From Halarcobacter anaerophilus (GTDB taxonomy: Bacteria; Campylobacterota; Campylobacteria; Campylobacterales; Arcobacteraceae), in the NCBI RefSeq assembly GCF_006459125.1, contig NZ_CP041070.1, positions 682,001-746,000 on the forward strand: a stretch of DNA of 64,000 nt, written 5' to 3'. The position numbers were made by a program, and so were the translations under genes. Under the pieces are notes generated by a model. That model ran no database searches, was not told where the DNA came from, and saw only the letters and a list, made by a program, of their open reading frames with translations. Shown here piece after piece: positions 2,132-19,668 of this stretch. The number at the start of each line of letters is the position of its first letter. The stretch's first letter is position 1.

Positions 2132-2140
2132 AGCTTAAAA

Positions 2141-2175: not shown

Positions 2176-2265
2176 ATTGATTTTTAGTTGATTATTTCAA
2201 ATATGAATAGGTTTTAAAATATTAATTAGCTTTAGTTTATAGTTTAAAACTTAATGGAGGAAAAT

Positions 2266-3063
2266 ATGCACAAAAGTTTTATTAAATCAAAAATTTATGC
2301 AATGATTGCATTATTTATTATGACAGTTGGATTTACTTTTCCAATGGTCTCTTTTCATGGTACTCTAAATAAAATCCATGATAATAAGGTTAAAGAAATA
2401 TCTCCTTTTACAAAGAAGATATGGAATTTTTATAATCAAGGAAGATATAAAAGTACTACTACTCCAGAAGAAGCTCATAATAATCTTGAAAAGATGATAG
2501 AGACTTCTTCTGAAATTGGTGTTGCGTCATTCCCTATATGGACATGTTCTTTAGAAGCTCCTAATTATCCTAAAAAAGCTTTTCCTGAAGGAATCCCTGT
2601 TTTTTTTCATTTTGATGGATTTTCTGGCGAAGTTCATGAAATGAATACAATTAATCATTATGTTGGAATGGACCCTATGTGGAGAGGAGGTAGATTTGAG
2701 AGAGAAATAGGTGCTTATGCCCTTTTAGGACTCTCATTATTTATGATATATTTTATTCTTTATCATAAAAAAATACTTAATTATGTAATGTGGATTTCAG
2801 CTTCTTTACCTCTTATCTTTTTGGGAGAGTATTCTTATTGGTTATATTGGTTTGGACACAATCTTCATGACTGGGGAGCTTTTAAGATTAAACCTTTTAT
2901 GCCAACAGTATTTGGAGATGGCAAAATTGCACAATTTACAACACACTCTTATCCTAATATAGGTTTTTATACTCTTCTTGCAATTGGAATTTTTAGTCTT
3001 TTAGCTGTTTTATCGAGAAATAAAGCTTTAAAAGAGACAAAAGAGTTAGTAAAGGATAAATGA
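2266..3063 (+). CDS. nosB: NosB, membrane protein of the clade II nos operon
   Basis: This polytopic membrane protein has an N-terminal hydrophobic segment (about residues 8-28), a periplasmic domain, and three more hydrophobic stretches in the second half. It occupies the nosB position between nosZ and nosD, as in Wolinella. NosB is needed for N2O respiration in that group, but its biochemical role is not established. I chose the ATG at 2266 because a GGAGG sits 5 bases upstream at 2256-2260; the in-frame ATG at 2254 overlaps that ribosome-binding site. The stop overlaps the nosD start (ATGA), which implies translational coupling. A conserved-looking His/Trp-rich loop (GHNLHDWG) lies between the last two membrane segments. 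Confidence 0.8.
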   Translation: MHKSFIKSKIYAMIALFIMTVGFTFPMVSFHGTLNKIHDNKVKEISPFTKKIWNFYNQGRYKSTTTPEEAHNNLEKMIETSSEIGVASFPIWTCSLEAPNYPKKAFPEGIPVFFHFDGFSGEVHEMNTINHYVGMDPMWRGGRFEREIGAYALLGLSLFMIYFILYHKKILNYVMWISASLPLIFLGEYSYWLYWFGHNLHDWGAFKIKPFMPTVFGDGKIAQFTTHSYPNIGFYTLLAIGIFSLLAVLSRNKALKETKELVKDK

Positions 3064-4274
3064 TGTTGCGTTTATTTGTTGTTTGTTGTTTTATTTTTAT
3101 TAATTCTTTATTTGCTAATTTATTACAAGAAACAATAGACAATGCACCTGAAGGTGCCATATTAAAGCTTCCTAAAGGTTTATATAAAGGGTCTATTGTA
3201 ATAAATAAACCTTTATCTATTATAGGTAAAGAGGAGGGAGTTATCATAGATGGTGAAGGAATTGGAACAGTTATTCAAGTTAATAGTCCTTATGTAACAA
3301 TAAAAAATTTAATTGTACAAGGAAGTGGAGACAGACATGAGAATCTTGATGCCGGGATAAAAATAACTAATTCAAAACAATCTGAAATATCAAATTGCAT
3401 AATTAGGGATTCTTTATTTGGTATTGATGTATCAATGACGAATAACTCTATTATTTCAAATAATTATATTACTTCAAAAAATCTTGCTTTAGGTTTAAGA
3501 GGTGATGGACTTAGACTTTGGTATTCAAATGATAATATTATTACAAAAAATAAATTAGTGAAATCAAGAGATATGGTAGTTTGGTATTCTCATGGAAATG
3601 AAATTTCTGAAAATTTTGGAGAATATAACAGATACTCTTTACATTTTATGTATGCAGGAAAAAATTACGTTAAAAATAACATATATCAATACAATTCTGT
3701 AGGAATATTTTTTATGTATAGCAAAGATACTATTGCTGTGGGAAATGTAATAAAAAGTTCATTAGGAGCAACAGGCATGGGAATAGGATTAAAAGATGTA
3801 TCTAACTTTACATTAAAAGATAATACTGTTATTTATTGTGCTCAGGGAGTTTATATTGATAGATCGCCTTTTGAACCAGATACAAAAAACTGGATAGAAA
3901 ATAATAAAATTCTATATAATTCAGAAGCTGTACATTTTCATTCAATTAGTGAAAATAATGTAATTAAAGGTAATACTATATTGGGTAACATTGAAGATAT
4001 AGTAAATGATAGTAGAGGTACTAAAACAGATAAAAATGAGATTGTGGGAAACTATTGGGATAATTATCAAGGATTTGATAAAAATCAAGATAATATAGGA
4101 GATACACCACATAGAGTTTATCAATATGCAGATCAGTTATGGGTATATAATCCAAGTGTAAAATTTTTTTATGGTTCTCCCGTAATATCATTATTGAGCT
4201 TTCTTGCAAAGCTGGCTCCATTTAGTGAACCTATATTTTTATTACAAGATGAAAAACCAAAATTAAAATTATAA
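3060..4274 (+). CDS. nosD: NosD, periplasmic copper-site maturation protein
   Basis: The protein is 404 residues with a Sec signal peptide (about 1-19, ending SLFA) followed by a right-handed beta-helix of the NosD/CASH type. The repeated Asn-rich turns of the form NxI/NxF (for example SNCIIRDS, SNNYITSKN, KNNIYQYN) show this. NosD works with the ABC transporter NosFY to mature the CuZ centre of NosZ. It is coupled to nosB by a 4-base overlap. A second ATG follows the first directly, so the start may be 3063. No signs of truncation. Confidence 0.93.
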   Translation: MMLRLFVVCCFIFINSLFANLLQETIDNAPEGAILKLPKGLYKGSIVINKPLSIIGKEEGVIIDGEGIGTVIQVNSPYVTIKNLIVQGSGDRHENLDAGIKITNSKQSEISNCIIRDSLFGIDVSMTNNSIISNNYITSKNLALGLRGDGLRLWYSNDNIITKNKLVKSRDMVVWYSHGNEISENFGEYNRYSLHFMYAGKNYVKNNIYQYNSVGIFFMYSKDTIAVGNVIKSSLGATGMGIGLKDVSNFTLKDNTVIYCAQGVYIDRSPFEPDTKNWIENNKILYNSEAVHFHSISENNVIKGNTILGNIEDIVNDSRGTKTDKNEIVGNYWDNYQGFDKNQDNIGDTPHRVYQYADQLWVYNPSVKFFYGSPVISLLSFLAKLAPFSEPIFLLQDEKPKLKL

Positions 4275-4283
4275 GGATTGATA

Positions 4284-5027
4284 ATGGATAATATAAAAGA
4301 GAATAGAAGAAATTTTATAAAGTTTTCAACTCTGGGGATTTTAGGATTAGCATTGGGAGGTGGAGTCGTTATTAGCCCTCATCTTTTACGTGCTGAAATG
4401 AGACTTAGACCTCCTGGAGCAGTTCCTGAGCAAGAATTCCTGGCTCTATGTATTAAATGTGGGCAGTGCTTACAAGTTTGTCCCTATCATTCAATAAAAC
4501 TTTCTGATATTATAATGGGACATGGGATAGGAACTCCTTATATTGATCCAAGAGAAAGAGGATGTTATGCTTGCAATGCAGTCCCTTGTGTTCTTGCCTG
4601 TCCCAGTGGGGCTTTAGATCATGCCTTAGAAAAATCTGAAGATGCACATATGGGTATTGCAGTTTTAGAATTTCCGAATAGATGTTTAGCTTTATCTAAT
4701 ACTCCTGTTCCTAAAGGACATAGTAAAAGGATTCATGATTTTATAAATGAACAAAACAATGTAACTCAATTAGAGAGGGATATGTTGAAGAAACTTGATG
4801 CTTTTGAAGGTAAACAGTGTACAATTTGTGCGGATATGTGTCCTTTACCTAATCCTTTAAGTGCCATTTCAATGGTTAAAAATGATGATGGGGAAAAACC
4901 TGAAATTTATGAGGGATGTATAGGATGTGGAGTTTGTGAAGAGCTTTGTCCTTCAAAAGAACCTGCGATAGTTATAAAGCCAAGATTATCTTATGAAGAT
5001 TATTATATTAAAGGAATTAAATCATGA
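4284..5027 (+). CDS. nosG: NosG, NapG-like periplasmic ferredoxin
   Basis: This NapG-family iron-sulfur protein passes electrons from the menaquinol side (NosH) toward NosZ. It begins with a twin-arginine-type signal (RRNFIKF plus a hydrophobic stretch). Four cysteine clusters follow: CIKCGQCLQVCP, CYACNAVPCVLACP, CTICADMCP and CIGCGVCEELCP, consistent with four [4Fe-4S] centres. I prefer the ATG at 4284, with AAGGA at 4273-4277, over the TTG two codons earlier. The 3' end overlaps nosC1 by 4 bases. Confidence 0.93.
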   Translation: MDNIKENRRNFIKFSTLGILGLALGGGVVISPHLLRAEMRLRPPGAVPEQEFLALCIKCGQCLQVCPYHSIKLSDIIMGHGIGTPYIDPRERGCYACNAVPCVLACPSGALDHALEKSEDAHMGIAVLEFPNRCLALSNTPVPKGHSKRIHDFINEQNNVTQLERDMLKKLDAFEGKQCTICADMCPLPNPLSAISMVKNDDGEKPEIYEGCIGCGVCEELCPSKEPAIVIKPRLSYEDYYIKGIKS

Positions 5028-5620
5028 TAAAAAAAATATTATTAAGTATTGCAATTACAATTTTTATTATAGGTTGTACGGAAAAAAAAGATAATAAAGA
5101 AACAAATATTTCAACAGATGGAGAAACTCCTTTGAAAATAGAAATAGAAGAAAATAAAAATGCAAAAGAGATAAAAGTAATAGAAAAAGAAAAAACTGGA
5201 ACGCAAAAAGAGGAGTCATATTATTTAAGTTACAATATAAAAAATGAATATGATCCAAATTCTCAACCAGCGAATAAAGATGCATCTGTCAGAGTAAAGC
5301 CAAGAACAAATATTGAAGCAAATATGAATGTACGAAGCCCTTATGAAAAAATAAAAATTTCATTGCTTGTAAAAAAACTTAGTAAAGATTTTATTGTTAA
5401 ATGTTCTGCTTGTCATAATGATTATGCAAATGGAATAATTGGTCCATCTTTATTGGATAAAGATTCTAAGTTTATATATGATGCTATTATGAATTTTAGA
5501 AATGAGAAAAATAAAAATATACTTATGTCAGACCTTGTAAAGCAAATGGATAAGAAGGAGATAAAAAAAATTGCCGATGAAATCTATGAGTTCAATAAAA
5601 ATATTAGGAATTTAAAATGA
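5024..5620 (+). CDS. nosC1: NosC1, monohaem cytochrome c lipoprotein
   Basis: A 198-residue protein with a lipoprotein-type signal (lipobox ending IIGC, residue 18), a long Lys/Glu-rich linker, and a single haem site CSACHN near residue 128. It occupies the nosC1 position of the Wolinella-type operon, where it is thought to relay electrons from NosGH to NosZ. The linker would let the haem domain reach out from the inner membrane. It is coupled on both sides by ATGA-type overlaps with nosG and nosC2. Confidence 0.87.
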   Translation: MIKKILLSIAITIFIIGCTEKKDNKETNISTDGETPLKIEIEENKNAKEIKVIEKEKTGTQKEESYYLSYNIKNEYDPNSQPANKDASVRVKPRTNIEANMNVRSPYEKIKISLLVKKLSKDFIVKCSACHNDYANGIIGPSLLDKDSKFIYDAIMNFRNEKNKNILMSDLVKQMDKKEIKKIADEIYEFNKNIRNLK

Positions 5621-6111
5621 AGAATATAATAGCAATAGTTTCAACTGTTATAGTTATGGGGTTAATATTATATGTTTACAGCAAAGGACCTGCTTATCAA
5701 GGAGGAGAAGCCGGACGTATAATTGAAGATTTGAAAGTTGTTCAACAAGAGATTAAGGTTGATTCAATAAAAGAGAAAAAAAATTTAGAACAAGAAAAAT
5801 TAAAAGCTTTAAGAGATAAAGTAGGTAATACTGCACAATTTGAAGTGAGTAATGCTTATAAGAGTAAATGCTCTTCTTGTCATGGAGTTGATGGTTCCGG
5901 AACACAAAATGGTAAGAAGCTTATGGGACCATCTTTAATTGGGCAAAGTGAAGAGATGATATATAAAAATTTAGTTGATTTTAAAGCAGGAAGAAAAGAA
6001 AATCTTATTATGAAAGGTTTATTGATAAATCTTTCAGATAATGAACTTAAAAACTTTGCTAAAGAAATTTCACAATTTAAAGTAAAAAGAGATGCTTTAA
6101 ATAAAAATTAA
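5617..6111 (+). CDS. nosC2: NosC2, membrane-anchored monohaem cytochrome c
   Basis: A 164-residue protein with one N-terminal membrane anchor (about residues 4-22), a charged coiled-coil-like stretch (about 35-72), and a haem motif CSSCHG near residue 85 followed by a GSGTQNGKKLMGPSL segment typical of class I cytochromes c. It is adjacent and related in layout to NosC1. Both proteins are presumed electron carriers between the NosG/NosH quinol dehydrogenase and NosZ. Here the anchor is an uncleaved helix, whereas NosC1 has a lipid anchor. Confidence 0.87.
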   Translation: MKNIIAIVSTVIVMGLILYVYSKGPAYQGGEAGRIIEDLKVVQQEIKVDSIKEKKNLEQEKLKALRDKVGNTAQFEVSNAYKSKCSSCHGVDGSGTQNGKKLMGPSLIGQSEEMIYKNLVDFKAGRKENLIMKGLLINLSDNELKNFAKEISQFKVKRDALNKN

Positions 6112-6123
6112 TAGGAAAAAATA

Positions 6124-7029
6124 ATGGATAAATGGAACAATAAAGAGACAATAAGTCATTCAACATTTTTTTCAACTTTCTTGGATAGGACAAAAGATGG
6201 AAAAACACGTTTATCATATAGAGCAAAAAGGTGGATAGTAATTATAACTATACATTTACTATTCTTTTTATCTTTCTCTATTGATATTCAAACGCTTGAA
6301 GGGACATTAAACGGTTCAAGATTTTTAGGGTTTCACTTAATTGATCCTTTTACTACAATTCAGATGTATCTTGCTGAACATCATATTCATACAAATATAA
6401 TAATTGGCACAACGACAATTGTAGCTTTTTATTTATTGTTCGGAGGTAGAACTTATTGTGCTTGGGTATGTCCTTATGGAATATTAAGTGAAATTGGAGA
6501 AAAAATTCATGATACTTTGGTTCATAAAAGAATAATCAAAAGTAGAAAGTTTGATCATAGAATAAGACATATATTTTGGTTAATATTTGGAATTTTAGCA
6601 TTTACAAGTGGATATTTAGTATTTGAAACATTTAATGTAGTAGGTATTATGAGTAGGTTCATAGCTTATGGATGGAGTCTTGCTCTTTCTTGGGTTTTTG
6701 TTATTTTTTTGATAGAAGTTTTCTTCTCAAGAAGAGCATGGTGTACATATATTTGTCCTATAGGAACTACTTATGGATATATAGGAAAAGTAAGTGCTCT
6801 TAGGATTCAATGGAGTGACTCATGTGATCATTGTATGGTTTGTCATGATGTATGTTTTGAAAATCAAGTATTAGAATTAACAAAAGCTAAGTATGATAAA
6901 GAAAGAAAAGAAAAAGGCATAAAAACTCAGTATGTGACGGGAGCAGATTGCACCTTGTGTGGCAGATGTATTGATGTATGTCATTCAGATGCATTGAAAT
7001 TTGATTTTAGATTGAAAGGATTAATGTAA
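6124..7029 (+). CDS. nosH: NosH, NapH-like membrane polyferredoxin
   Basis: This NapH-type quinol dehydrogenase subunit has four or more membrane helices. Two CxxxCP motifs (CAWVCPYG and CTYICPIG) follow helices, and a C-terminal cytoplasmic ferredoxin domain carries CDHCMVCHDVC and CTLCGRCIDVCH. NosH is expected to oxidise menaquinol and pass electrons to NosG. A clear GGAAAAA spacer precedes the ATG, and the gene ends one base before nosF. Confidence 0.93.
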   Translation: MDKWNNKETISHSTFFSTFLDRTKDGKTRLSYRAKRWIVIITIHLLFFLSFSIDIQTLEGTLNGSRFLGFHLIDPFTTIQMYLAEHHIHTNIIIGTTTIVAFYLLFGGRTYCAWVCPYGILSEIGEKIHDTLVHKRIIKSRKFDHRIRHIFWLIFGILAFTSGYLVFETFNVVGIMSRFIAYGWSLALSWVFVIFLIEVFFSRRAWCTYICPIGTTYGYIGKVSALRIQWSDSCDHCMVCHDVCFENQVLELTKAKYDKERKEKGIKTQYVTGADCTLCGRCIDVCHSDALKFDFRLKGLM

Positions 7030-7030
7030 A

Positions 7031-7681
7031 ATGATAAAAATTTCAAATTTAACAAAACAATTTAATTCTCATAAATCTTTAAATAATGTGAATATTGAAT
7101 TCCAAAAAAATGATCATATAGCTTTAATGGGACCTAACGGAGCGGGTAAAACTACTTTAATACGTTCCATTATGGGATATTATCATCCTACTTCAGGTGA
7201 AATTTTAATTAATGGGAAAGATCCAATTAAAAATAGAACAGAGGTTTTAAAGATTATTTCATTTGTTCCTCAACTACCGCCACCAATAAAGTTAAATCTT
7301 GATGAATTAATTAAATATATAGAAAGAAGTTCCAATGTTAATAAGGAGTTAATTTTGCATTATGCAAATGAGATGAAATTGGATATAAAAAGTAATTTAT
7401 ATAAATCTTTTTTTAAGTTAAGTGGAGGTATGAAACAAAAAATGTTAATAGCAATTAGCTTAGCAAGAAAAAGTGATATCATAATATATGATGAACCAAC
7501 TGCAAATCTTGATCCAAAAGCAAGAGATGATTTTTATAGATTATTGAAAGAGGATAAGAATGAAAAAATTTCTCTTTTTGTAACACATAGACTTGAAGAG
7601 GTTAAAAAAATTGTAAATAGACAGGTTTACATGGATTTAGGAGAAATTGTTATTAATAAAAAAATAAAGGAAATATTATGA
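7031..7681 (+). CDS. nosF: NosF, ABC transporter ATPase for CuZ maturation
   Basis: A 216-residue ATP-binding cassette with Walker A GPNGAGKTT (about residue 34), signature LSGGMKQK, Walker B IIYDEPT and a switch His in FVTHR. It pairs with the permease NosY and the periplasmic NosD to deliver a sulfur-containing substrate for the CuZ cluster (family knowledge). It is shorter than many NosF proteins, which run to about 300 residues, because it lacks a C-terminal extension. The stop overlaps the nosL start. Confidence 0.93.
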   Translation: MIKISNLTKQFNSHKSLNNVNIEFQKNDHIALMGPNGAGKTTLIRSIMGYYHPTSGEILINGKDPIKNRTEVLKIISFVPQLPPPIKLNLDELIKYIERSSNVNKELILHYANEMKLDIKSNLYKSFFKLSGGMKQKMLIAISLARKSDIIIYDEPTANLDPKARDDFYRLLKEDKNEKISLFVTHRLEEVKKIVNRQVYMDLGEIVINKKIKEIL

Positions 7682-8133
7682 AAAAGAACATTTTAAATAC
7701 AGGTATATTAGTTGTTCTAATTATGGTTTTTATGGCTTGTGAAAAAAAAGATTCTAATAATCCTCATGAAATGCATTGGGATAGGGATATGTGTGTTAGA
7801 TGTAAAATGGTTATAAGTAATAGAAAACATGCTGTACAAGTTATTAATCCAGAAAGTAACAAAGTTTATAAATTTGATGATTTAGGGTGTGCTATTAAAT
7901 GGTTTAGAGAAAATGATATTGGATGGGAAGATAATGCAAAAATTTGGATTACTGATGTAAAAAGTGGGAAATGGATTGATGCAAAAAAAGCATATTATGA
8001 TACTACTCATAATACACCAATGGCATATGGTTTTTCTGCAAATGAAAAAAAACAATCAATAACTGACAATACTTCTGAGGTACTTGATTTCAATGAGGTG
8101 AAAAAAAGAATTTTAGAAAGAAAAAAACAGTAA
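7678..8133 (+). CDS. nosL: NosL, copper chaperone lipoprotein
   Basis: A 151-residue NosL-family protein with a lipoprotein signal (MACEKK, Cys at residue 21). The expected Cu(I) ligand region MCVRCKM follows near residues 38-44. NosL delivers copper to apo-NosZ at the membrane surface. The gene sits between nosF and nosY, whereas the Wolinella order ends F-Y-L, so there has been a local swap or insertion. A Cys-less relative is encoded at the operon end. Confidence 0.92.
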   Translation: MKKNILNTGILVVLIMVFMACEKKDSNNPHEMHWDRDMCVRCKMVISNRKHAVQVINPESNKVYKFDDLGCAIKWFRENDIGWEDNAKIWITDVKSGKWIDAKKAYYDTTHNTPMAYGFSANEKKQSITDNTSEVLDFNEVKKRILERKKQ

Positions 8134-8159
8134 ATATTAAAAATTTTAATGGAGAAAAA

Positions 8160-8987
8160 ATGAAAAATCTTTTTTTAATAGCATATCTTGATTTAAAAGA
8201 ATCACTTAGAGCAAATTGGTTCATTATTTACTCTTTAGTTTTTGGAGGAATGATAGCTCTTTTTTTTATTGCAGGAGTGACTCAATCACAAGTTATGGGG
8301 TTTAGTGGTCTAAGTAGACTTCTTCTTATTTATATACAAGTAACAATTATAATTTTACCGATCTTTATTCTTATTTCAACAGTTAGATCAATCTCTGGGG
8401 ATAGAGACACTTATATTTTAGAATATATGCTTTCTTTTCCTATTTCTTTAAAACAATATTATTGGGGAAAAATTTTTGGAAGATTTATTACTGTATTCTC
8501 TCCTGTATTTTTTGCTATGATAATTGCCGTTATATATGGAAAAATTATTGGTGCTTTAATACCTTGGAATATTTTTTTCTTATATACAGGATTACTTTTT
8601 TCCCTTTCTTCCGCATTTTTAGGAATTGCTTTTTTTATTTCTTCTTTTGTTAAAACAAGTGAAGTTGCATTGGGACTTTCATTTTTTATTTGGATTTTTT
8701 TATTGGCTTTTATCGACATAGCACTTATATCATTAATGCTACAAAATAGGTTTGATGAGAGTCTTATAATTAGTATTGCATTGTTAAATCCTATGGAAAT
8801 CTTTAGAGTTGCAGCTATTTCTTTATTTGATCCATCATTAACTGTAATGGGACCGGTTGCTTTTTATATTTTAGACAATTTTGAACAAAAAGTGTTTATT
8901 TCTCTTTCTATTTTATACCCATTTGTCTTAGGTCTAATTTTTGCTTTTTGGGGATTTTTTATTTTTTCCAAAAAAGATTTAGTTTAA
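8160..8987 (+). CDS. nosY: NosY, ABC transporter permease
   Basis: A 275-residue ABC-2 type permease with six hydrophobic segments. It contains the conserved SGDRDTYILEYMLSFP region that contacts the ATPase, and ends in a final helix with a short Lys-rich tail. It is the membrane partner of NosF in CuZ maturation. A GGAG lies 7 bases before the ATG. Confidence 0.92.
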   Translation: MKNLFLIAYLDLKESLRANWFIIYSLVFGGMIALFFIAGVTQSQVMGFSGLSRLLLIYIQVTIIILPIFILISTVRSISGDRDTYILEYMLSFPISLKQYYWGKIFGRFITVFSPVFFAMIIAVIYGKIIGALIPWNIFFLYTGLLFSLSSAFLGIAFFISSFVKTSEVALGLSFFIWIFLLAFIDIALISLMLQNRFDESLIISIALLNPMEIFRVAAISLFDPSLTVMGPVAFYILDNFEQKVFISLSILYPFVLGLIFAFWGFFIFSKKDLV

Positions 8988-8997
8988 AGGAGTTTTT

Positions 8998-9489
8998 ATG
9001 TTAAAAAAATTGTTGTTTTTTAGTTCATTTTGTTGTTTCTTAATAACATCTGTAGCTAGCGCAAGTGATGTCTCTTTAAAATATGATAATGAGACAAAAG
9101 GTTTAGTGAGAAAAATGAAAGTTTATAAGGATCCTTCCTGGGTTAGTAAAGTGATAACAAGTGAGTCTAAAGAGTTTTATTTCTTAAGTCCTAAGTCAAT
9201 GTTTGAATTTTATTTTAATCCTAAAAAGTGGCCAATTACTAATGTTGAAAATAGAAATAATATAAAAGAAATTATAGTTACGGATTACTTTACTCTTAAA
9301 CCAATAAGAGCCAGAGAAGCATATTATGTATATGGTAGTAATAAAGTATCTTTAGCTGGAGATGACTTACCTGCTTTTAAATTATATTCACATGCCCAAG
9401 AATTTGCAGAAAAAAATAATGGAAAAAGAATTTTTAAATTTAATGAGGTAAAAAAGGCTTTAATAGACTTGCTTAATGGAAATATATAA
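8998..9489 (+). CDS. second NosL-like periplasmic protein without cysteine ligands
   Basis: A 163-residue secreted protein with a cleavable signal (about 1-22, ending VASA). Its C-terminal half resembles NosL: AYYVYGS, then a short DLPAFKLYSHAQEFAE segment and GKRIFKFNEV, as in NosL family members. It has no lipobox and no Cys in the mature protein, so the Cu(I) site of canonical NosL is absent. It is the last gene of the nos operon (AAAGGAG before the ATG). It may be a scaffold or delivery partner for NosL, but the function is unproven. Confidence 0.65.
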   Translation: MLKKLLFFSSFCCFLITSVASASDVSLKYDNETKGLVRKMKVYKDPSWVSKVITSESKEFYFLSPKSMFEFYFNPKKWPITNVENRNNIKEIIVTDYFTLKPIRAREAYYVYGSNKVSLAGDDLPAFKLYSHAQEFAEKNNGKRIFKFNEVKKALIDLLNGNI

Positions 9490-9633: not shown

Positions 9634-9675
9634 TTGATTAGAATCAATGATTTTAAGTTTATAAGAAGATAAAAT
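9634..9675 (+). promoter_or_regulatory. perfect FNR/CRP-family box and -10 element
   Basis: TTGAT-TAGA-ATCAA (9634-9647) matches the FNR consensus TTGAT-N4-ATCAA in every fixed position. A TAAAAT -10-like hexamer lies at 9670-9675. With a start of transcription near 9682 the box is centred at -41.5, the classical class II activation position. This suggests activation by a CRP/FNR-family regulator under low oxygen or nitrosative conditions. The regulator gene is not in the window. Confidence 0.8.
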
Positions 9676-9705
9676 TTTTTGTATATAAACTAATAGGAGT
9701 AAGTA

Positions 9706-10026
9706 ATGGAAAAAATAGAAGTTTTAGGTTCAACAGTGGATTTTTATAAAGAAATTAAAAATGGTTTAAGTATTTATTCTTTTGATACAAGTATGTGTGT
9801 GCCACCTGATCCAATGGTAAATGCAATGGCTGGATTACAATTATTAGATGAAAATTCACAACTAATAATGATAAATCACAAATCTCCAGCGGGATTATTC
9901 CCAAAAATTGAACAAGATTTTAATTTTGTACAAGAATACACATCTGATGGAAAAGTAAAAGTTATATTTACAAAAAAATCTAATGTTAGTAATACAGACT
10001 TTTTACAAAATAGTTGTAATGGATAA
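9706..10026 (+). CDS. DUF2249-like small protein
   Basis: A 106-residue cytoplasmic protein. The central segment (FDTSMCVPPDPMVNAMAGLQ, then a basic MINHKSPAGLFPKIEQ stretch) resembles DUF2249, a TusA/SirA-like fold often found beside genes for nitrogen-oxide metabolism. The biochemical role is unknown. It is the first gene of a four-gene operon behind the FNR-type box, with an AGGAG 7 bases before the ATG and the next gene 12 bases downstream. Confidence 0.6.
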   Translation: MEKIEVLGSTVDFYKEIKNGLSIYSFDTSMCVPPDPMVNAMAGLQLLDENSQLIMINHKSPAGLFPKIEQDFNFVQEYTSDGKVKVIFTKKSNVSNTDFLQNSCNG

Positions 10027-10038
10027 AAAAGAGAAAAA

Positions 10039-11283
10039 ATGAATATTTCACAGCAGTTTGCTCCTCCATTTAAATTGATATCACCATATCTTTTGATAGG
10101 AATATTAATTTTAGTATGTAGTACTTTTTTACTGTTTACAATAGATATTGTAAATCTACATAACCTAAATAGTATCACTCTCTCATGGGTGCACTTATTT
10201 TTATTGGGATTTGTGATGATGGTTATTTTTGGTACCATGGCTCAATTAGTACCTGTAGTCCTTGAAGTTGGACATTTTGCAGTTGATTTATATTATATAA
10301 TCTATCCTTTACTTTTTATAGGAACTTTGTTGATGGTAATTGGATTTCATTATTATCCTAGTTTTTTACTTTTTGGCGGAGTTGTTTCATTTGTTGCATT
10401 TTCAATATTTTTGCTTGAAACATTTTTGACTATTTTAAAAGTCAAAAAGCTGAATTTTGTTATTTCAACAGTTTTAATAGCAAATATATTTTTACTTTTT
10501 GGTTTAATTATTGGGATACTATTAGCATTTGGATATAGTGGTGAAATTAATATTAATATATATCAGTTTTTAAAAGCTCATGTTTATTTAGTCCTCGTAG
10601 GTTATGTAGGAGTCACCATAATGGGAATGTCATTGATTTTATTACCTATGTTTTGGCTTAGTCATAGTTTTTCATGGATATATGTAAAAAATGCTTTAGT
10701 TATCTTATGTGTGGGAATATTACTTGTGGTTTTTTCAAGTTTTATTGATATACAGTTTTTTGAATATATAGGTTATTCCTTTACATTTTTGGCACTGCTT
10801 TTATATTTTTTTCAAATATTCATAATATATAGAACAAGAGTTAGATTAGAGATTGATATCTATTTCAAAAGTATGATGTTTTCATATATTTGTCTGCTTA
10901 CGTCAATAATAATGGGAATAATATATATGTTTTATCCTATTCAAACTTTACTATTATCTCTTTCATGGCTTGGTATTTTTGGTTTTATTACTTTTCTAAT
11001 TACAGGACATCTTTATAAAATAATTCCTTTTTTAGTTTGGTATGAGAGATTTTCACCATATGTTGGAAAAAGAAAAGTTCCCATGTTAGCTGATATGATT
11101 CCCGTTAAGAGTGCAAATATGCAATTTTTATTTTCTACTTTTGGAGTAGTTGTGATTTCAATAGGGCTTTTATTTATTAATGAAGTAGTTTATAAAAGTG
11201 GAGTCAGTTTATTAAGTGTAGGTGCAATTTTTTTGTTAAAAGATATTTTATATATGATAAGGTTTAAAGAAGATGTATTCTAA
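10039..11283 (+). CDS. polytopic membrane protein related to haem-copper oxidase subunit I / NnrS-type proteins
   Basis: A 414-residue protein made almost entirely of hydrophobic helices (about 12). Three helices carry a histidine in haem-protein-like context: WVHLFLLGFVMMVIFG (about residue 52), KAHVYLVLVGYVGVTIMG (about 180) and TGHLYKIIPFLVWYE (about 328). This resembles the single-subunit proteins annotated as cytochrome oxidase subunit I-like in other bacteria. The full set of CuB ligands of a true oxidase is not obvious. The 3' end overlaps the DUF59 gene by 11 bases. Function unknown; a role in NO handling or haem-linked electron transfer is inference. Confidence 0.6.
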   Translation: MNISQQFAPPFKLISPYLLIGILILVCSTFLLFTIDIVNLHNLNSITLSWVHLFLLGFVMMVIFGTMAQLVPVVLEVGHFAVDLYYIIYPLLFIGTLLMVIGFHYYPSFLLFGGVVSFVAFSIFLLETFLTILKVKKLNFVISTVLIANIFLLFGLIIGILLAFGYSGEININIYQFLKAHVYLVLVGYVGVTIMGMSLILLPMFWLSHSFSWIYVKNALVILCVGILLVVFSSFIDIQFFEYIGYSFTFLALLLYFFQIFIIYRTRVRLEIDIYFKSMMFSYICLLTSIIMGIIYMFYPIQTLLLSLSWLGIFGFITFLITGHLYKIIPFLVWYERFSPYVGKRKVPMLADMIPVKSANMQFLFSTFGVVVISIGLLFINEVVYKSGVSLLSVGAIFLLKDILYMIRFKEDVF

Positions 11284-11578
11284 AGAAGAAATTTTTAAAG
11301 CAGTCTCAACGGTAAATGACCCGGAAGTTGGTTTCAATCTTGTGGAAATGGGACTAATCTACGATGCTATTTGTAATGAGAATATGGAAGTAACGGTAAC
11401 AATGACACTAAGTACAAAAGCTTGCCCTCTACATCAAATGATTCTGCAATGGGTAGAAGAAGCTATCTTAAAAGAACTTCAAAAAACGAAAAAAGTAATT
11501 ATTAACTTAGTTTGGGAACCCACTTGGAATATTACAATGGCAACTGATAAAGTAAAGTCAAAACTTAGTACTTTTTAA
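11273..11578 (+). CDS. DUF59/MIP18-family protein (PaaD/SufT-like)
   Basis: A 101-residue protein with the family signature DPEVGFNLVEMGLIYD (about residues 17-32) and a conserved Cys in TKACPLHQM (about 57). DUF59 proteins assist iron-sulfur cluster assembly or insertion (SufT, PaaD, MIP18). Here it probably matures a target encoded in the same operon. It overlaps the membrane-protein gene by 11 bases and is followed by a GAGGA-led FmdE-like gene. Confidence 0.85.
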   Translation: MYSKEEIFKAVSTVNDPEVGFNLVEMGLIYDAICNENMEVTVTMTLSTKACPLHQMILQWVEEAILKELQKTKKVIINLVWEPTWNITMATDKVKSKLSTF

Positions 11579-11599
11579 TAAATATTAAAAAGAGGAAAA

Positions 11600-12193
11600 A
11601 TGAATTATCCAAATTTTTTTAATGACATAGAAACAATAAAATTAAAAGATGAGTTATCAGAATATTTGGGTGCTTTTGAAAAAGGCATTATTGAATTTAG
11701 TTATTTAGATATAGTTAAAAGTTCTGGTCACTCTTGTCCTACTATTGCAGGAGCTTATATTATGACACTTAAAGCTTTAAAAGAATTATATAAAGATGAA
11801 ATGCCCAAAAGAGGTGAAATTTTTGTAAGTTTTAGAGAAAATTCAAAAGAAGGTGTAACCGGGGTTATTGCAAATGTTGTTACTCAAATAACAGGAGCTA
11901 CAGAAAGTTTGGGATTTAAAGGATTAAATGGAAAATTTGAAAGATTTGGACTAATGAAATTTAATGAAGATATTACTTTGAGTATAAAATTTCAAAGACT
12001 CGACACAAAAAAATTTGTTGAAATAATATATAATCCTGATTTGATTCCTTTGAATCCTAAAATTAATCAATTACACCAAAAAATAAGGCAAAATAGAGCT
12101 CTTGAAGAGGAAAAAATTGAATTTGGAAAATTGTGGCAAGAAAGAGTTAATACAATTTTTAAAAATATAGATAAGGTTGTAACAATAATATGA
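11600..12193 (+). CDS. FmdE-like metal-binding protein
   Basis: A 197-residue protein with the FmdE family core motif GHSCPTIAGAY (about residues 42-52), a metal site with His and Cys ligands. It also has a REN..EGVTGVIANVVTQITGA segment typical of that domain. FmdE domains occur in formylmethanofuran dehydrogenase gene clusters and, far more widely, in bacteria with no methanofuran, where their role is unknown. It is the last full gene of the FNR-box operon. Its TGA overlaps the ATG of a 17-codon reading frame. Confidence 0.72.
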   Translation: MNYPNFFNDIETIKLKDELSEYLGAFEKGIIEFSYLDIVKSSGHSCPTIAGAYIMTLKALKELYKDEMPKRGEIFVSFRENSKEGVTGVIANVVTQITGATESLGFKGLNGKFERFGLMKFNEDITLSIKFQRLDTKKFVEIIYNPDLIPLNPKINQLHQKIRQNRALEEEKIEFGKLWQERVNTIFKNIDKVVTII

Positions 12194-14811: not shown

Positions 14812-14835
14812 GAGAAAATTCCCTTATCCTTTTAT
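14802..14835. terminator. shared terminator of rhlE and ackA
   Basis: Arms AAAAGATAAG (end of the helicase gene) and CTTATCCTTTT pair with one mismatch around a 10-base loop. The T-rich right side suits the + strand, and the A-rich left side suits the minus strand, so it can serve both convergent genes. Confidence 0.65.
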
Positions 14836-16037
14836 TAGCATTTTGTACCTGATACTACTTTATAAGTATCATTTGCAATAACATACTCTTCATTTGTAGG
14901 AATTACAAATATTCTAGAAGCTGAACCGTTTGTTGCTATATCTCTTGCGTCACTTCTTCTTTTATTGTTTTTTACAGGGTCTAAAACTAATCCCATTCCA
15001 TCTAGTCCTGCACAAACTATTTCTCTGATTAGCGAGGCATTTTCACCTATACCTCCAGTAAAACATAAAGCATCGACTCCGTCAAGTGCAGCAACATAAG
15101 AACCTACATATTTTTTAATATTGTAAGCAACCATTTGAACTGCCAATCTACATCTGTCATCACCTTCTTGCATACCTTCTAAGATCTCTCTTAAATCAGA
15201 AGATTTACCTGAAATTCCCAAGATTCCCGATTTTTTATTCATAACATCTAAGGCTTCATCAATAGTCATACCCTCTTGACTCATCATAAATTGTAAGGCA
15301 CCGGCTCCAACATCACCGCTTCTTGTTCCCATCATAAGGCCTTGAATCGGAGTTAGTCCCATTGAGGTATCTATACATTTACCATTATATACAGCTGAAA
15401 CAGAAGAACCGTTTCCTAAGTGGCAAACAATAATTCTTGTATTTCTTTTTTTATCTAACATACCTCTTGCTTCGTTTGAAACATAATAGTGGCTTGTACC
15501 GTGAAAACCGTATTTCCTAATACCGTGTTTAGTATATTGGTCATAAGGCAGAGCATACATATAAGCATAATCAGGCATTGTTTGATGAAATGCAGTATCA
15601 AACACAGCTACGTTAGGTTTCCCCGGCATTAATTCTTGACAAATTTCCATACCTAAGATATTTGCGGGATTGTGTAACGGAGCAAGAGGAATTAATCTTT
15701 TCATAGTTTCAATAACTTTTGGAGTTACCATTACAGAACTAGAGAACTCTTCTCCTCCATGTACGGCTCTGTGTCCGATGGCATCAATATCGTTGATTGA
15801 ATCAATAACTTTTCCTTCACCTGCTGTTAAAGCTGATAATACAGATTCTATTGCCTCTTTATGAGTAGGCATATCAATCTCTTCTACTAGTTTTTTGCCC
15901 TCACCGTATTCATGTTTTAATACTCCATCGATACCTATTCTTTCACAAATTCCTGAAGCAAATACTTTTTTAATAATTGGATTCATTAATTGATATTTTA
16001 ATGATGAACTTCCTGCGTTTAAAATAAATACTAACAT
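14835..16037 (-). CDS. ackA: acetate kinase, copy 1
   Basis: A 400-residue acetate kinase interconverting acetate + ATP and acetyl phosphate + ADP. Family motifs are intact: NAGSSSLKYQL at the N-terminus, PLAPLHNPANI, GFHGTSHYYV, HLGNGSS, GTRSGDVGAG and FTGGIGEN. It follows pta copy 1 by 31 bases on the same strand, so the two form a pta-ackA operon. It is clearly homologous along its whole length to copy 2 (17233) but with many substitutions, unlike the nearly identical pta copies. GAGGGAAAA precedes the ATG. Confidence 0.97.
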   Translation of the reverse strand: MLVFILNAGSSSLKYQLMNPIIKKVFASGICERIGIDGVLKHEYGEGKKLVEEIDMPTHKEAIESVLSALTAGEGKVIDSINDIDAIGHRAVHGGEEFSSSVMVTPKVIETMKRLIPLAPLHNPANILGMEICQELMPGKPNVAVFDTAFHQTMPDYAYMYALPYDQYTKHGIRKYGFHGTSHYYVSNEARGMLDKKRNTRIIVCHLGNGSSVSAVYNGKCIDTSMGLTPIQGLMMGTRSGDVGAGALQFMMSQEGMTIDEALDVMNKKSGILGISGKSSDLREILEGMQEGDDRCRLAVQMVAYNIKKYVGSYVAALDGVDALCFTGGIGENASLIREIVCAGLDGMGLVLDPVKNNKRRSDARDIATNGSASRIFVIPTNEEYVIANDTYKVVSGTKC

Positions 16038-16068
16038 GTCTTTTCCCTCTTCTTTTAATATAATTTAA

Positions 16069-17061
16069 TTATTTTTGCGTTGCAGTAATAGCAACTAAAT
16101 TAGCGATGTCCTCAACAGAGCAACCACGAGATAAGTCGTTAACAGGTTTAGCTAAACCTTGAACAACAGGACCGTGGGCATGAGCACCTGCAAATCTTTG
16201 AACAAGTTTATATCCAATGTTTCCAGATTGTAAATCAGGGAAAACTAAAATATTAGCATGACCTGCAACCTTAGAATCAGGAGCTTTTTTAGCACCTATT
16301 GCTTCAACAATAGCAGCATCTGCTTGCATTTCACCGTCAAATGCGAAATCAACATTTCTCTCAGCTAAAATGTCAACGGCAAATTGAACTTTGTCAACAA
16401 GTGGATGCTTAGCACTGCCTTTTGTAGAGAAAGATAACATAGCAACTTTAGGGTCAATTCCAACAACACTTTTAGCAGTAGCAGCAGTAGCACAAGCAAT
16501 GTCGGCTAACTGTTCCGCATTAGGTTCAGGGATAACGGCACAGTCAGCAAAAAGAAGAAGACCGTTTTCTCCGAATTTTCCGTCAATAGTTTCCATGATA
16601 AACGCTGAAGATACAGTGTTTATACCAGGAGCAGTTTTAATAACCTGAATAGCAGCTCTTAAAACATCTGCAGTAGGAGAGTTAGAACCTGCGACAAGAC
16701 CGTCGGCATCAGCTAATCTAACCATCATACAACCAAAAAATCTAGGTTCGGTAGTCATAATTTTAGTAGCTTCTTCTCTTGATAGACCTTTGGCTTTTCT
16801 AAGCTCAACTAATTCATCAATATATTTTTCAATATCTTTAAATGATTTAGGGTTAATAATAGTAGCACCGTCAATATTTGCACCGCAAGATTTAGCATCG
16901 TTTTTAATAGTATCTTCGTCACCGATTAAAACGATGTTTGCAGTTTTTTCTTCAAGAACCATAGCAGCAGCTTTCAATACTCTTTCGTCTTCCGATTCCG
17001 GGAGAACTATAGTTTTTAATTCTTTTTTAGCATTCTCTTTAATATTCTCAATTAAACCCAT
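16069..17061 (-). CDS. pta: phosphate acetyltransferase, copy 1
   Basis: A 330-residue Pta of the short class, containing only the catalytic PTA/PTB domain and no N-terminal regulatory domain. It converts acetyl-CoA and phosphate to acetyl phosphate and back. Conserved stretches include VLPESEDERVLKAA, GLVAGSNSPTADVLRAA, SFSTKGSAKHP and NILVFPDLQSGNIGYKL. By my reading its DNA differs from copy 2 at only five positions over the whole gene, and the proteins differ only in the last residue (Lys here, Ala there). It is transcribed from the promoter at 17098-17130. Confidence 0.97.
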   Translation of the reverse strand: MGLIENIKENAKKELKTIVLPESEDERVLKAAAMVLEEKTANIVLIGDEDTIKNDAKSCGANIDGATIINPKSFKDIEKYIDELVELRKAKGLSREEATKIMTTEPRFFGCMMVRLADADGLVAGSNSPTADVLRAAIQVIKTAPGINTVSSAFIMETIDGKFGENGLLLFADCAVIPEPNAEQLADIACATAATAKSVVGIDPKVAMLSFSTKGSAKHPLVDKVQFAVDILAERNVDFAFDGEMQADAAIVEAIGAKKAPDSKVAGHANILVFPDLQSGNIGYKLVQRFAGAHAHGPVVQGLAKPVNDLSRGCSVEDIANLVAITATQK

Positions 17062-17097
17062 TCATGCTTCCTTTCTTTCTATGAAATATCACTTTTG

Positions 17098-17130
17098 ATT
17101 ATAATATGCTAGAATAGCAAAAAAATAGCA
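17098..17130 (-). promoter_or_regulatory. pta copy 1 promoter with tandem TAGCA boxes
   Basis: Read on the minus strand: TGCTA (17126-17130), six bases, TGCTA (17115-17119), eleven bases, then a perfect TATAAT (17098-17103). The half-sites are 11 bp apart and span the place of the -35 element, which itself is missing. This is the geometry of OmpR/PhoB-type activated promoters. The same motif recurs at 19528-19560, 27029-27044 and 31771-31803. Confidence 0.75.
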
Positions 17131-17203
17131 ATTGCAAAAAAGGGTAAAATTTTTTAGGATATAATTTTTTTTGTGTATTTTCGGAAGGAATTTTTATAAG
17201 TGT

Positions 17204-17231
17204 AATAAGAGTCTTAAAAAAGACTCTTATT
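17204..17231 (-). terminator. terminator after ackA copy 2
   Basis: A perfect 12-bp stem (17204-17215 with 17220-17231) and a four-base loop lie directly after the ackA copy 2 stop codon at 17233. The T-run is better on the + strand, but position makes it the 3' end of the pta2-ackA2 transcript. Confidence 0.75.
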
Positions 17232-17232
17232 T

Positions 17233-18432
17233 TTAATCGGCAAACTCTCTAACAACATCATATGTATCATGTGCGATTACATACTCTTCATTTGTAGGAA
17301 TTACGAATATTCGTGCAGCTGAACTGTTTGTTGCAATATCTCTTGCATTATGTTTTTTCTTATTATTCTTAATCGGGTCTAAAACAAGTCCCATTCCATC
17401 AAGTCCTGTACAAACTATTTCTCTAATAAGAGCGGAATTTTCACCGATACCTCCTGTAAAACATAAAGCATCGACTCCGTCAAGTGCAGCAACATAAGAA
17501 CCTACATATTTTTTAATATTGTAAGCAACCATATCAACTGCTAATCTGCATCTTTCATCTCCTTGCTGCATACCTTCTAATACTTCTCTCAAATCAGAAG
17601 ATTTACCTGAGATTCCCAAGATTCCGGATTTTTTATTCATGATGTTAGTAACTTGGTCTATATCAAGTCCTTCTTGTTTCATCATATATCTAATTGCTCC
17701 AACTCCTACGTCTCCTGCTCTTGTTCCCATCATAAGACCTTGAACGGGAGTTAATCCCATTGAAGTATCAATAGATTTTCCGTTTAATACAGCAGTAACA
17801 GAAGAACCGTTTCCTAAGTGACAAACAATAATTCTTGTATTTCTTTTTTTATCTAACATGCTTCTTGCTTCGTTTGAAACATAATAGTGGCTTGTACCGT
17901 GAAAACCGTATTTTCTAATTTTATATTTTTTATATTGGTCATAAGGCAGAGCATACATATAAGCATAATCAGGCATTGTTTGATGAAATACCGTATCAAA
18001 CACTGCAACATTTGGTTTATCAGGCATTAACTCCTGACAAATTTTTATTCCCATAATATTTGCCGGATTATGAAGAGGTGCCAACGGAATAAGCTCTTCT
18101 ATTTTCTCAATTACACTGTCATCGACTAATGTAGATTTTTTAAAAGCTTCTCCTCCGTGGGCAACTCTGTGTCCGATAGCTTGAATATCGTCAATAGAAT
18201 CAATAACTTTGCCTTCTCCACTTGTTAATGTTCTAAGAACTAATTCAATTGCTTCTTTATGTGTCGGTAAATTTGCATCAAGTTTAAGTTCCCTATCCTC
18301 AAACTCATGTCTTAAGATACCGTCTATTCCAATTCTCTCACAAATTCCACTAGCCAAAACCTCCTTTGTCACAGGATTCATCAACTGATATTTAAGCGAT
18401 GAGCTTCCTGCGTTTAAAATAAATACTAACAT
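17233..18432 (-). CDS. ackA: acetate kinase, copy 2
   Basis: A 399-residue acetate kinase with the full motif set (NAGSSSLKYQL, HNPANI, GFHGTSHYYV, HLGNGSS, GTRAGDVGVG, FTGGIGEN). It lies 70 bases downstream of pta copy 2 on the same strand. The first 20 residues and the segment around the active site are nearly the same as in copy 1, while residues 45-110 and 235-265 differ strongly. This points to an old duplication. Two intact kinases plus a third at 21081 suggest different affinities or different conditions of use (inference). Confidence 0.97.
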   Translation of the reverse strand: MLVFILNAGSSSLKYQLMNPVTKEVLASGICERIGIDGILRHEFEDRELKLDANLPTHKEAIELVLRTLTSGEGKVIDSIDDIQAIGHRVAHGGEAFKKSTLVDDSVIEKIEELIPLAPLHNPANIMGIKICQELMPDKPNVAVFDTVFHQTMPDYAYMYALPYDQYKKYKIRKYGFHGTSHYYVSNEARSMLDKKRNTRIIVCHLGNGSSVTAVLNGKSIDTSMGLTPVQGLMMGTRAGDVGVGAIRYMMKQEGLDIDQVTNIMNKKSGILGISGKSSDLREVLEGMQQGDERCRLAVDMVAYNIKKYVGSYVAALDGVDALCFTGGIGENSALIREIVCTGLDGMGLVLDPIKNNKKKHNARDIATNSSAARIFVIPTNEEYVIAHDTYDVVREFAD

Positions 18433-18502
18433 GTCTTTTCCCTCTTTTAGTCTATTTTATTCGTTTATATTTCGATTTATAGTATGAAATAATATATATT
18501 GT

Positions 18503-19495
18503 TTATGCTTGCGTTGCAGTAATAGCAACCAAATTAGCGATGTCCTCAACAGAGCAACCACGAGATAAGTCGTTAACAGGTTTAGCTAAACCTTGAACAA
18601 CAGGACCGTGGGCATGAGCACCTGCAAATCTTTGAACAAGTTTATATCCAATGTTTCCAGATTGTAAATCAGGGAAAACTAAAATATTAGCATGACCTGC
18701 AACCTTAGAATCAGGAGCTTTTTTAGCACCTATTGCTTCAACAATAGCAGCATCTGCTTGCATTTCACCGTCAAATGCGAAATCAACATTTCTCTCAGCT
18801 AAAATGTCAACGGCAAATTGAACTTTGTCAACAAGTGGATGCTTAGCACTGCCTTTTGTAGAGAAAGATAACATAGCAACTTTAGGGTCAATTCCAACAA
18901 CACTTTTGGCAGTAGCAGCAGTAGCACAAGCAATGTCGGCTAACTGTTCCGCATTAGGTTCAGGGATAACGGCACAGTCAGCAAAAAGAAGAAGACCGTT
19001 TTCTCCGAATTTTCCGTCAATAGTTTCCATGATAAACGCTGAAGATACAGTGTTTATACCAGGAGCAGTTTTAATAACCTGAATAGCAGCTCTTAAAACA
19101 TCTGCAGTAGGAGAGTTAGAACCTGCGACAAGACCGTCGGCATCAGCTAATCTAACCATCATACAACCAAAAAATCTAGGTTCGGTAGTCATAATTTTAG
19201 TAGCTTCTTCTCTTGATAGACCTTTGGCTTTTCTAAGCTCAACTAATTCATCAATATATTTTTCAATATCTTTAAATGATTTAGGGTTAATAATAGTAGC
19301 ACCGTCAATATTTGCACCGCAAGATTTAGCATCGTTTTTAATAGTATCTTCGTCACCGATTAAAACGATGTTTGCAGTTTTTTCTTCAAGAACCATAGCA
19401 GCAGCTTTCAATACTCTTTCGTCTTCCGATTCCGGTAGAACTATAGTTTTTAATTCTTTTTTAGCATTCTCTTTAATATTCTCAATTAAACCCAT
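18503..19495 (-). CDS. pta: phosphate acetyltransferase, copy 2
   Basis: A 330-residue short-class Pta, identical in protein sequence to copy 1 except for the last residue. The near identity of the DNA begins at the second-to-last codon and ends about 10 bases upstream of the start, just past the ribosome-binding site; DNA on both sides is unrelated or diverged. That pattern points to recent gene conversion rather than recent duplication of the whole pair. The gene is read from the promoter at 19528-19560. Confidence 0.97.
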   Translation of the reverse strand: MGLIENIKENAKKELKTIVLPESEDERVLKAAAMVLEEKTANIVLIGDEDTIKNDAKSCGANIDGATIINPKSFKDIEKYIDELVELRKAKGLSREEATKIMTTEPRFFGCMMVRLADADGLVAGSNSPTADVLRAAIQVIKTAPGINTVSSAFIMETIDGKFGENGLLLFADCAVIPEPNAEQLADIACATAATAKSVVGIDPKVAMLSFSTKGSAKHPLVDKVQFAVDILAERNVDFAFDGEMQADAAIVEAIGAKKAPDSKVAGHANILVFPDLQSGNIGYKLVQRFAGAHAHGPVVQGLAKPVNDLSRGCSVEDIANLVAITATQA

Positions 19496-19527
19496 TCATG
19501 CTTCCTTTCAATAAGTAAATTCAATAA

Positions 19528-19560
19528 ATTCAAACATTAAAGAATAGCATAAAAATAGCA
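19528..19560 (-). promoter_or_regulatory. pta copy 2 promoter region with tandem TAGCA boxes
   Basis: TAGCA on the + strand at 19545-19549 and 19556-19560 (11-bp period), so TGCTA twice on the minus strand toward pta copy 2. Eleven bases further, TTGAAT (19528-19533) takes the -10 place but matches TATAAT in only four of six positions. The boxes are conserved between the two pta promoters while the surrounding spacer is not. Confidence 0.65.
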
Positions 19561-19668
19561 TTTTAAATTAAAAATTGCTTACTATTAACATAAAAATTTC
19601 AAAAGTGTAGAAATTTAATACACTATTTTGACATAATTTTTTTAGTGTTACTTTCTCCTACATCAAAA

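Follow-up and report, generated by a model that had tools for sequence, protein, structure and literature searches.

A conserved DUF2249, haem-copper oxidase homologue and DUF59 gene set behind an FNR-type promoter, with a possible role in cofactor upkeep for nitrate respiration

What does an operon for a membrane protein and its small partner proteins do beside the genes for nitrous oxide reductase? The question is raised by a stretch of 64,000 nt from Halarcobacter anaerophilus (the window; contig NZ_CP041070.1, positions 682,001 to 746,000), in which genes for a DUF2249-like protein, a haem-copper oxidase homologue (HCOH), a DUF59 protein and an FmdE-like protein follow a nos cluster. No assigned reaction for the DUF2249-HCOH-DUF59 set was found in the literature searched. 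An earlier reading of the sequence alone (the sequence-only reading) had proposed a membrane redox enzyme linked to nitric oxide (NO) or anaerobiosis, or the assembly system of such an enzyme. The explanation that we favour, tentatively and at somewhat less than even confidence, is that the operon encodes a membrane module that maintains or repairs the metallocofactors of nitrate and nitrogen oxide respiration at low oxygen, when nitrite or NO is present.

The promoter and the conserved gene set

The four genes lie on the + strand in close succession. The DUF2249-like gene (9706-10026; 106 amino acids, with a possible TusA-like fold and C104 in the tail) is followed after 12 bp by the HCOH gene (10039-11283; 414 amino acids, twelve transmembrane helices (TM), with H52 and H181), which overlaps by 11 bp the gene of the DUF59 (PF01883) protein, of iron-sulfur assembly type (11273-11578; 101 amino acids). 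After a gap of 21 bp comes an optional fourth member, the FmdE-like (PF02663) gene (11600-12193; 197 amino acids). The single operon that the sequence-only reading had described is supported.

A perfect FNR-type box, TTGATTAGAATCAA, is found at 9634-9647 (+), with its centre at 9640.5, 65.5 bp from the start codon of the DUF2249-like gene. A -10 hexamer, TAAAAT, at 9670-9675 (+) places the predicted transcription start near 9682, and thus the box would be centred at -41.5. A lone box in the window is weak proof, since sites with at most one mismatch are not enriched there (9, versus 10.3 in shuffles) and 17 of the 20 perfect boxes in the genome (versus 1 for the reversed control pattern) lie inside open reading frames. 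The other three are 65.5 bp (this operon), 56.5 bp (the NnrS gene) and 190.5 bp from start codons. The box count in a single genome was therefore dropped as evidence of control, and relatives were compared instead.

Regions upstream of homologous operons have a perfect box in 60 of 113 cases, versus 1.3% of 200-mers drawn at random from those loci, a control not restricted to intergenic DNA. When regions shorter than 200 bp or repeated are dropped, 99 Campylobacterota regions remain, still related by descent; 53 have a perfect box and 78 match it at 9 or more of the 10 positions. Once aligned on the box, the 78 regions have a -10 hexamer in common (T.94, A.95, x, A.86, A.81, T.96); it occupies +29.5 to +34.5 relative to the centre of the box, a fixed distance that puts the box at -41.5. 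The class II layout is thus present in 78 of the 99 regions, and by this layout the promoter of the operon is of the class II FNR type and conserved across relatives; the FNR-type site at -41.5 of the sequence-only reading is supported. In 24 of 109 loci a Crp/Fnr-type gene is at most six genes away from HCOH; one representative of these genes was checked by Pfam.

HCOH matches were obtained in 187 of 397 Campylobacterota genomes. Among 40 loci chosen across the score range, DUF2249, HCOH and DUF59 are contiguous in 37; the other three carry a more distant HCOH without DUF2249 or DUF59 partners. In one of the 37 (L062, 6055-7287) the HCOH gene is split by an in-frame TAG. Removal of duplicates from a larger set of 120 loci left 111, of which 109 were used; many are cut by contig ends. 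DUF2249 directly precedes HCOH (-1) in 94 of these, and DUF59 directly follows it (+1) in 89. FmdE lies within six genes of HCOH in 19 of the 109. NosZ is found in none of the 40 loci, which have weak matches to nosF, nosL, nosG and nosH (some of them nap genes), and in neither set of loci does the conserved unit include cytochrome c or a cupredoxin as a partner. Other neighbours of HCOH are nap, sirohaem and NirDL-like genes, or genes apparently unrelated; clusters of proA-, proC-, rsmH-, thrC- and RND transporter-like neighbours (named by eye) were treated as lineage background. Judged by gene order, the unit conserved across the phylum is the three genes DUF2249-like, HCOH and DUF59, with FmdE optional and the adjacency to nos local. 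Thus the core of the proposed four-gene set stands, and FmdE as a fixed member does not.

Two further arrangements were noted among these loci. An Aliarcobacter butzleri plasmid has a membrane protein 79% identical to that of the window, with a DUF59 neighbour and transposase genes nearby. Locus L071 has a second FmdE-HCOH-DUF2249 group beside the operon, in the opposite orientation.

Associations across genomes were counted with a strong HCOH class (E ≤1.5e-28; 157 of the 187 genomes), whose cut-off was set after the list had been seen and which includes a few copies without DUF2249 or DUF59, as in the genome of L082. Among the 157 genomes, nosZ is present in 116, a nitric oxide reductase (NOR)-like gene in 100 (possibly an underestimate, since the threshold of E 1e-20 cuts a group of long proteins near 1e-21) and a cytochrome d1-type gene in 71 (PF02239 at E 1e-10, a model that also takes NirS relatives). 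The odds ratios with strong HCOH are 49 for nosZ, 18 for NOR and 28 for cytochrome d1, counted over related genomes and uncorrected for descent. Strong HCOH is found in 116 of 129 nosZ genomes and missing from 13, and 41 of the 157 strong-HCOH genomes have no nosZ. HCOH and a NOR gene are both listed for 72 genomes and share a contig in 38 of these; in 24 of the 38 they are within 30 kb of each other, and on large contigs this is so in 13 of 22, versus about 0.6 expected. In genome G292, nosZ, a NOR gene and HCOH share one contig within about 15 kb. The proposed link to nitrogen oxide respiration is borne out by the co-occurrence with nosZ, the proximity to NOR genes and the nap, sirohaem and NirDL-like neighbours; proximity to nos is true of the window and is not a defining trait, given the 41 genomes without nosZ.

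The membrane protein and its histidines

No model of Pfam, NCBIfam or PHROGs matches the HCOH sequence of the window at E values up to 1, the haem-copper oxidase model PF00115 and the NnrS model PF05940 included. The homologue in Natrinema scores 24.5 with PF00115, below the cut-off of 34.8. The AlphaFold2 model (predicted local distance difference test score (pLDDT) 91.5, predicted template modelling score 0.91) has twelve long helices, and its top solved match is the cbb3 oxidase subunit CcoN (8smr_E; Z 35.1, root-mean-square deviation 3.0, 386 residues aligned), with NO reductases at Z 33.9 (4xyd_A) and 31.8. By this predicted structure, which has the 12-TM arrangement of the superfamily, HCOH is a haem-copper-oxidase-fold protein, as the sequence-only reading had supposed.

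The protein consists of three four-helix units, which match one another at E 7e-7, 2e-4 and 4e-6. Each aligns best with the last third (TM9-12) of CcoN, at E 9e-6, 0.017 and 3.5e-4, the middle one weakly. In full-length hhalign comparisons NorB is matched at E 0.016 (probability 2.8) and CcoN at E 0.0023 (probability 12.6), with only the first unit aligned. Three-unit HCOH proteins with two conserved histidines and a genomic link to DUF2249 and denitrification were reportedly described by Pei et al. in Protein Sci in 2014 (10.1002/pro.2503). Compared with that description, the window protein is alike in its 12 TM in three units similar to oxidase TM9-12 (the middle one weakly so), in two conserved histidines (30 of 30 alignment rows) and in the DUF2249 and denitrification link; the placement of the histidine pair in TM2 and TM6 was worked out here.

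The catalytic subunits of haem-copper oxidases and NO reductases have six histidines, in TM2, 6, 7 and 10, which serve two haems and a second metal. The HCOH family alignments lack a conserved histidine in TM7, and the haem-ligand places of TM10 have none. H52 (TM2) and H181 (TM6) are the only histidines kept in all 30 rows, including Thermus and three rhizobial rows, one of which (S. meliloti) is frameshifted so that its last third is noise. H79, H209 and H324 are invariant in 51 closer relatives (an alignment that excluded L108, L148 and L156) and vary outside them; a cytoplasmic-side metal site formed by these three residues was dropped as a universal feature for this reason. A second HCOH in locus L054 (6134-7408), 23% identical to that of the window and two genes after FmdE, keeps H52 and H181 and has none of the three. 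In the alignments with CcoN TM9-12, the second histidine of the HVH motif is matched by H52 and the first by H181; in CcoN these two are ligands of the low-spin and the high-spin haem, respectively.

Since H52 and H181 alone are kept outside the phylum, we infer that a single haem with bis-His ligation sits between the first two units, without a CuB site. A classical oxidase or NO reductase is probably not what HCOH is: the TM7 histidine is not conserved, the TM10 haem-place histidines are absent, and of the six-histidine pattern only H52 and H181 are kept throughout, H324 being variable. These absences weaken oxidase or NO reductase catalysis as a candidate, and make unlikely the redox enzyme of that type which the sequence-only reading had entertained. 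CcoN and NorB of the NO reductase cNOR are alike to HCOH in fold (Z 35.1 and 33.9) and differ in sequence (11-13% identity) and in having six histidines against two universal ones.

NnrS (PF05940) is likewise a 12-TM haem-copper membrane protein. It resembles HCOH in its helix number and its place in NO regulons, and the NnrS gene of the window's own genome has the same kind of box. However, there is no Pfam match between the two, a profile comparison gives E 0.1, and the conserved histidines lie elsewhere: nine NnrS sequences, a set that left out the genome's own NnrS, share H65, H309 and H331 (rhizobial numbering), which inspection by eye assigns to TM2 and the region of TM10.

Partner proteins, related sets and the rest of the window

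The DUF2249-like protein scores 20.3 bits with PF10006 (E 5e-4), below the cut-off of 29.5, so that its family label is weak by the Pfam rule. Residues P33, P34, P36, M37, N57, H58 and K59 are invariant in 40 sequences, and C104 nearly so. The predicted structure (pLDDT 91.4) has TusA-like proteins as its top matches (8k1r_B, Z 8.6; 3hz7, 7.6; TusA 3lvj_C, 7.0), followed by Tdp2 (6.7), and the TusA matches of relatives with a DUF2249 domain, with E values between 4e-6 and 3e-4, are all under the Pfam cut-off. Two short rhizobial DUF2249 proteins have a Cys-rich C-terminal tail. The family is presumably the same as COG4309.

The other two family labels of the sequence-only reading, DUF59 and FmdE, are supported by Pfam. 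The DUF59 protein scores 47.3 bits with PF01883 (cut-off 23.5) and stays below the NCBIfam cut-offs of the SufT, PaaD and SUF-associated equivalogs (75.8/143.4, 71/180, 61.8/202.6 and 28.2/108.15). Its DPE motif is kept, and each position of CPLH is found in at least 36 of 38 Campylobacterota sequences; both motifs are also present in Thermus, and two rhizobial DUF59 proteins have only the CP of CPLH. A solved relative is 2cu6, named TTHB138. The FmdE-like protein scores 28.2 bits with PF02663 (cut-off 22.9) and has GHSCPT in 11 of 11 sequences; a sequence search gave no useful solved relative. By Pfam, no DNA-binding or output domain is present among the operon proteins.

Related sets occur outside the phylum. 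In Thermus JL-18 the order is nitrate reductase genes, a transporter, DUF2249 (DrpA), DUF2249 (DrpB), a 144-residue protein, a protoglobin, HCOH and DUF59, and the annotation of the 18.6 kb of this locus contains no nos gene. As in the window, DUF2249, HCOH and DUF59 are together, here beside the nitrate reductase operon. The window differs in having neither a DUF1858 protein nor a protoglobin, its DUF2249-like protein resembles the last domain of DrpB, and the Thermus regulator is DnrT, not FNR. The 144-residue protein (L172, 10542-10976) has a weak PF00115 match (E 4e-5) and is possibly a single-unit haem-copper oxidase homologue. In the Thermus thermophilus HB8 plasmid (NC_006462.1, 123797-124189) the match to HCOH is confined to its last third (query residues 253-383) and adjoins DUF59; matches of this kind on four plasmids look like remnants.

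Rhizobium N1341 has, in order, a NOR-type cluster (so named on our reading of the annotation), hemN, DUF2249, HCOH, DUF2249, DUF59, NnrS and nirK. This set (L174) has the order of the window save for the extra DUF2249, and H52 and H181 are common to both, whereas rhizobial HCOH is only 24-25% identical to that of the window and has none of H79, H209 and H324. Among haloarchaea, the HCOH homologue of Haloferax larsenii adjoins a gene for a multicopper oxidase; an oxidase-type gene, a halocyanin and DUF2249 are nearby. We take the multicopper oxidase gene to be nirK and the oxidase-type gene to be nor. In Natrinema the homologue lies 2.5 kb from ric, and there are two DUF2249 genes. Homology in the haloarchaea is less sure, because the matches cover 11-13% of the query.

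DrpA and DrpB of Thermus are induced under anoxia with nitrate, and the passages on them do not mention HCOH or DUF59 (PMC6282519); in a 2020 review drpAB are discussed as regulators (PMC7694296). A 2005 study had predicted COG4309 to belong to NO regulons together with nor genes (PMC1274295). In Haloferax mediterranei, DUF2249 genes are up under denitrification, and Pei et al. (2014) are cited there for the link of DUF2249 with the oxidase superfamily (PMC11218638). A DUF1858 gene of B. diazoefficiens is NnrR-dependent (PMC6710368).

In the window itself, the nos cluster runs from a nosZ cut by the window start to a second NosL-domain gene (83-9489, +); it is an upstream neighbour outside the conserved unit, and 216 bp separate its end from the DUF2249-like gene. 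Gene names in it other than NosZ, NosD and NosL are our own assignments. Its two NosL-domain proteins (7678-8133 and 8998-9489, +) flank a permease-like gene. Downstream of the operon, three acetate kinase-like and two phosphotransacetylase-like genes (named by eye) are consecutive at 14835-22274 (-), and the latter two (16069-17061 and 18503-19495) are identical at 988 of 993 bases, a recent duplication. At 22332-31445 (-) an exonuclease-like and CBS/nucleotidyltransferase-like pair occurs twice, each time adjoining a sodium:solute symporter-like gene (by eye). Adjacent AMMECR1-, radical SAM- and MEMO-like genes at 60720-63083 (+), again named by eye, would form the AmmeMemoRadiSam set.

What the gene set may do

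Upkeep of metallocofactors is favoured because the DUF59 and HCOH genes lie close to DrpAB in Thermus, where NarG is made and is hardly active when both drp genes are lost: the double deletion has NarG present with a nitrate reductase activity of 90 versus 900 U (PMC6282519). The assembly-system alternative of the sequence-only reading is plausible. In the proposed scheme the class II FNR-type promoter would turn the operon on at low oxygen. HCOH, with its single bis-His haem, would carry electrons or bind NO; having no CuB site, it would not reduce O2 or NO at a binuclear centre. On the cytoplasmic side HCOH, the TusA-like, Cys-tailed DUF2249 protein and the DUF59 factor, joined here by FmdE, would supply or mend iron-sulfur or related metal-sulfur centres. 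The clients would be enzymes or regulators of nitrate respiration generally, not NosZ alone. Within this scheme the haem and the electron path are inferences, as are the clients and what FmdE does.

Several points weigh against cofactor upkeep. The position of H181 depends on a weak alignment (E 0.017). The structural match of the DUF2249-like protein at Z 8.6 is near noise, with none by Foldseek at E ≤0.001, and by eye DrpA is less similar to the protein than are the final DUF2249 domains of DrpB and of the long rhizobial protein. Among the strong-HCOH genomes, 28 of 157 have none of nosZ, NOR and cytochrome d1. The genome of the window has nosZ and one PF00115 protein, which is CcoN-like, and has no NOR at E 1e-20 and no cytochrome d1 at 1e-10; the operon there thus stands apart from canonical NO formation and reduction. 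In Thermus, DrpA was found in the periplasm, against the cytoplasmic partner of the scheme (PMC6282519). Further, the DrpAB authors favour nitrate sensing, with enzyme maturation named as a possible complication, and report a change of transcription in the double mutant (PMC6282519).

The last point is the basis of a sensing module, in which HCOH and the DUF2249 protein would report nitrate, NO or the redox state to transcription regulators, as proposed for DrpA and DrpB, and DUF59 might load the iron-sulfur cluster of an FNR-type regulator. Deletion of drpAB makes nar transcription independent of nitrate (PMC6282519), and the Crp/Fnr-type genes near 24 of 109 loci would fit. However, no operon protein has a DNA-binding or output domain by Pfam, and a tenfold loss of activity with NarG present needs more than transcription (PMC6282519). 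Sensing, which with NO shielding is one of the two chief rivals to cofactor upkeep, is an unlikely explanation of the set.

We are equally doubtful of an NO sink or shield, in which the haem would bind NO in the membrane and guard iron pools as NnrS does, while the small proteins repair iron-sulfur centres. The NnrS gene of the same genome (L019, 2588-3751) has a perfect TTGAT-N4-ATCAA box at 2525-2538, 56.5 bp upstream of its start; in Rhizobium an NnrS gene adjoins the set, and the NO regulons predicted for COG4309 (PMC1274295) would agree. Yet NO could bind to a bis-His haem only if one ligand came off, HCOH has no match to PF05940 up to E 1, and the window's genome has no NirS-type or NOR match. 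The box before NnrS is perfect in 1 of the 23 listed rows from relatives (L219), at least 6 of which had picked another gene.

A bolder form of cofactor upkeep, for which our confidence is low, is that Campylobacterota, Thermus, rhizobia and perhaps haloarchaea have reused the haem-copper oxidase fold to conduct electrons in the membrane for a metal-sulfur assembly system. The bis-His haem would sit between units one and two, in a place left empty by oxidases, and quinol-derived electrons would pass to the TusA-like carrier and the DUF59 factor, by which the cofactors of nitrate respiration would be built or repaired. The proposed nitrate sensors of Thermus, DrpA and DrpB, would then be parts of the same machine.

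An assembly system for nitrous oxide reductase only, supplying for example the sulfur of CuZ, is very unlikely. It would account for the adjacency to nos in the window, for strong HCOH in 116 of 129 nosZ genomes and for a TusA-like partner; against it are the 41 of 157 strong-HCOH genomes without nosZ, the 13 nosZ genomes without strong HCOH, the Thermus set with nar and no annotated nos gene in its 18.6 kb, and the absence of NosZ from all 40 loci, the weak nosF, nosL, nosG and nosH matches (some nap) notwithstanding. That HCOH is itself an NO or O2 reductase of a novel kind, as the fold (Z 35.1 to cbb3 and 33.9 to NOR) and a genome with one CcoN-like PF00115 protein and no other NOR match might suggest, is highly improbable, since conserved TM7 and TM10 histidines are missing and the conserved unit includes neither cytochrome c nor a cupredoxin as a partner.

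Parts of the set are already linked with denitrification in print. No description of the whole was found in the literature searched, which covered few subscription papers; Pei et al. (2014) may describe part of it. As far as that search extends, what is new is the class II FNR layout across the phylum, the three-gene core, the histidine pair of TM2 and TM6, the separation from NnrS, and the joining of DrpAB with HCOH and DUF59.

The gene set is kept by nitrate respirers of several phyla, often near their reductases, and the two named histidines, H52 and H181, make HCOH open to test. If it does serve cofactor upkeep, this would explain why the Thermus nitrate reductase is made and is hardly active, and HCOH would be an example of an oxidase fold that has lost its catalytic centre and been reused.

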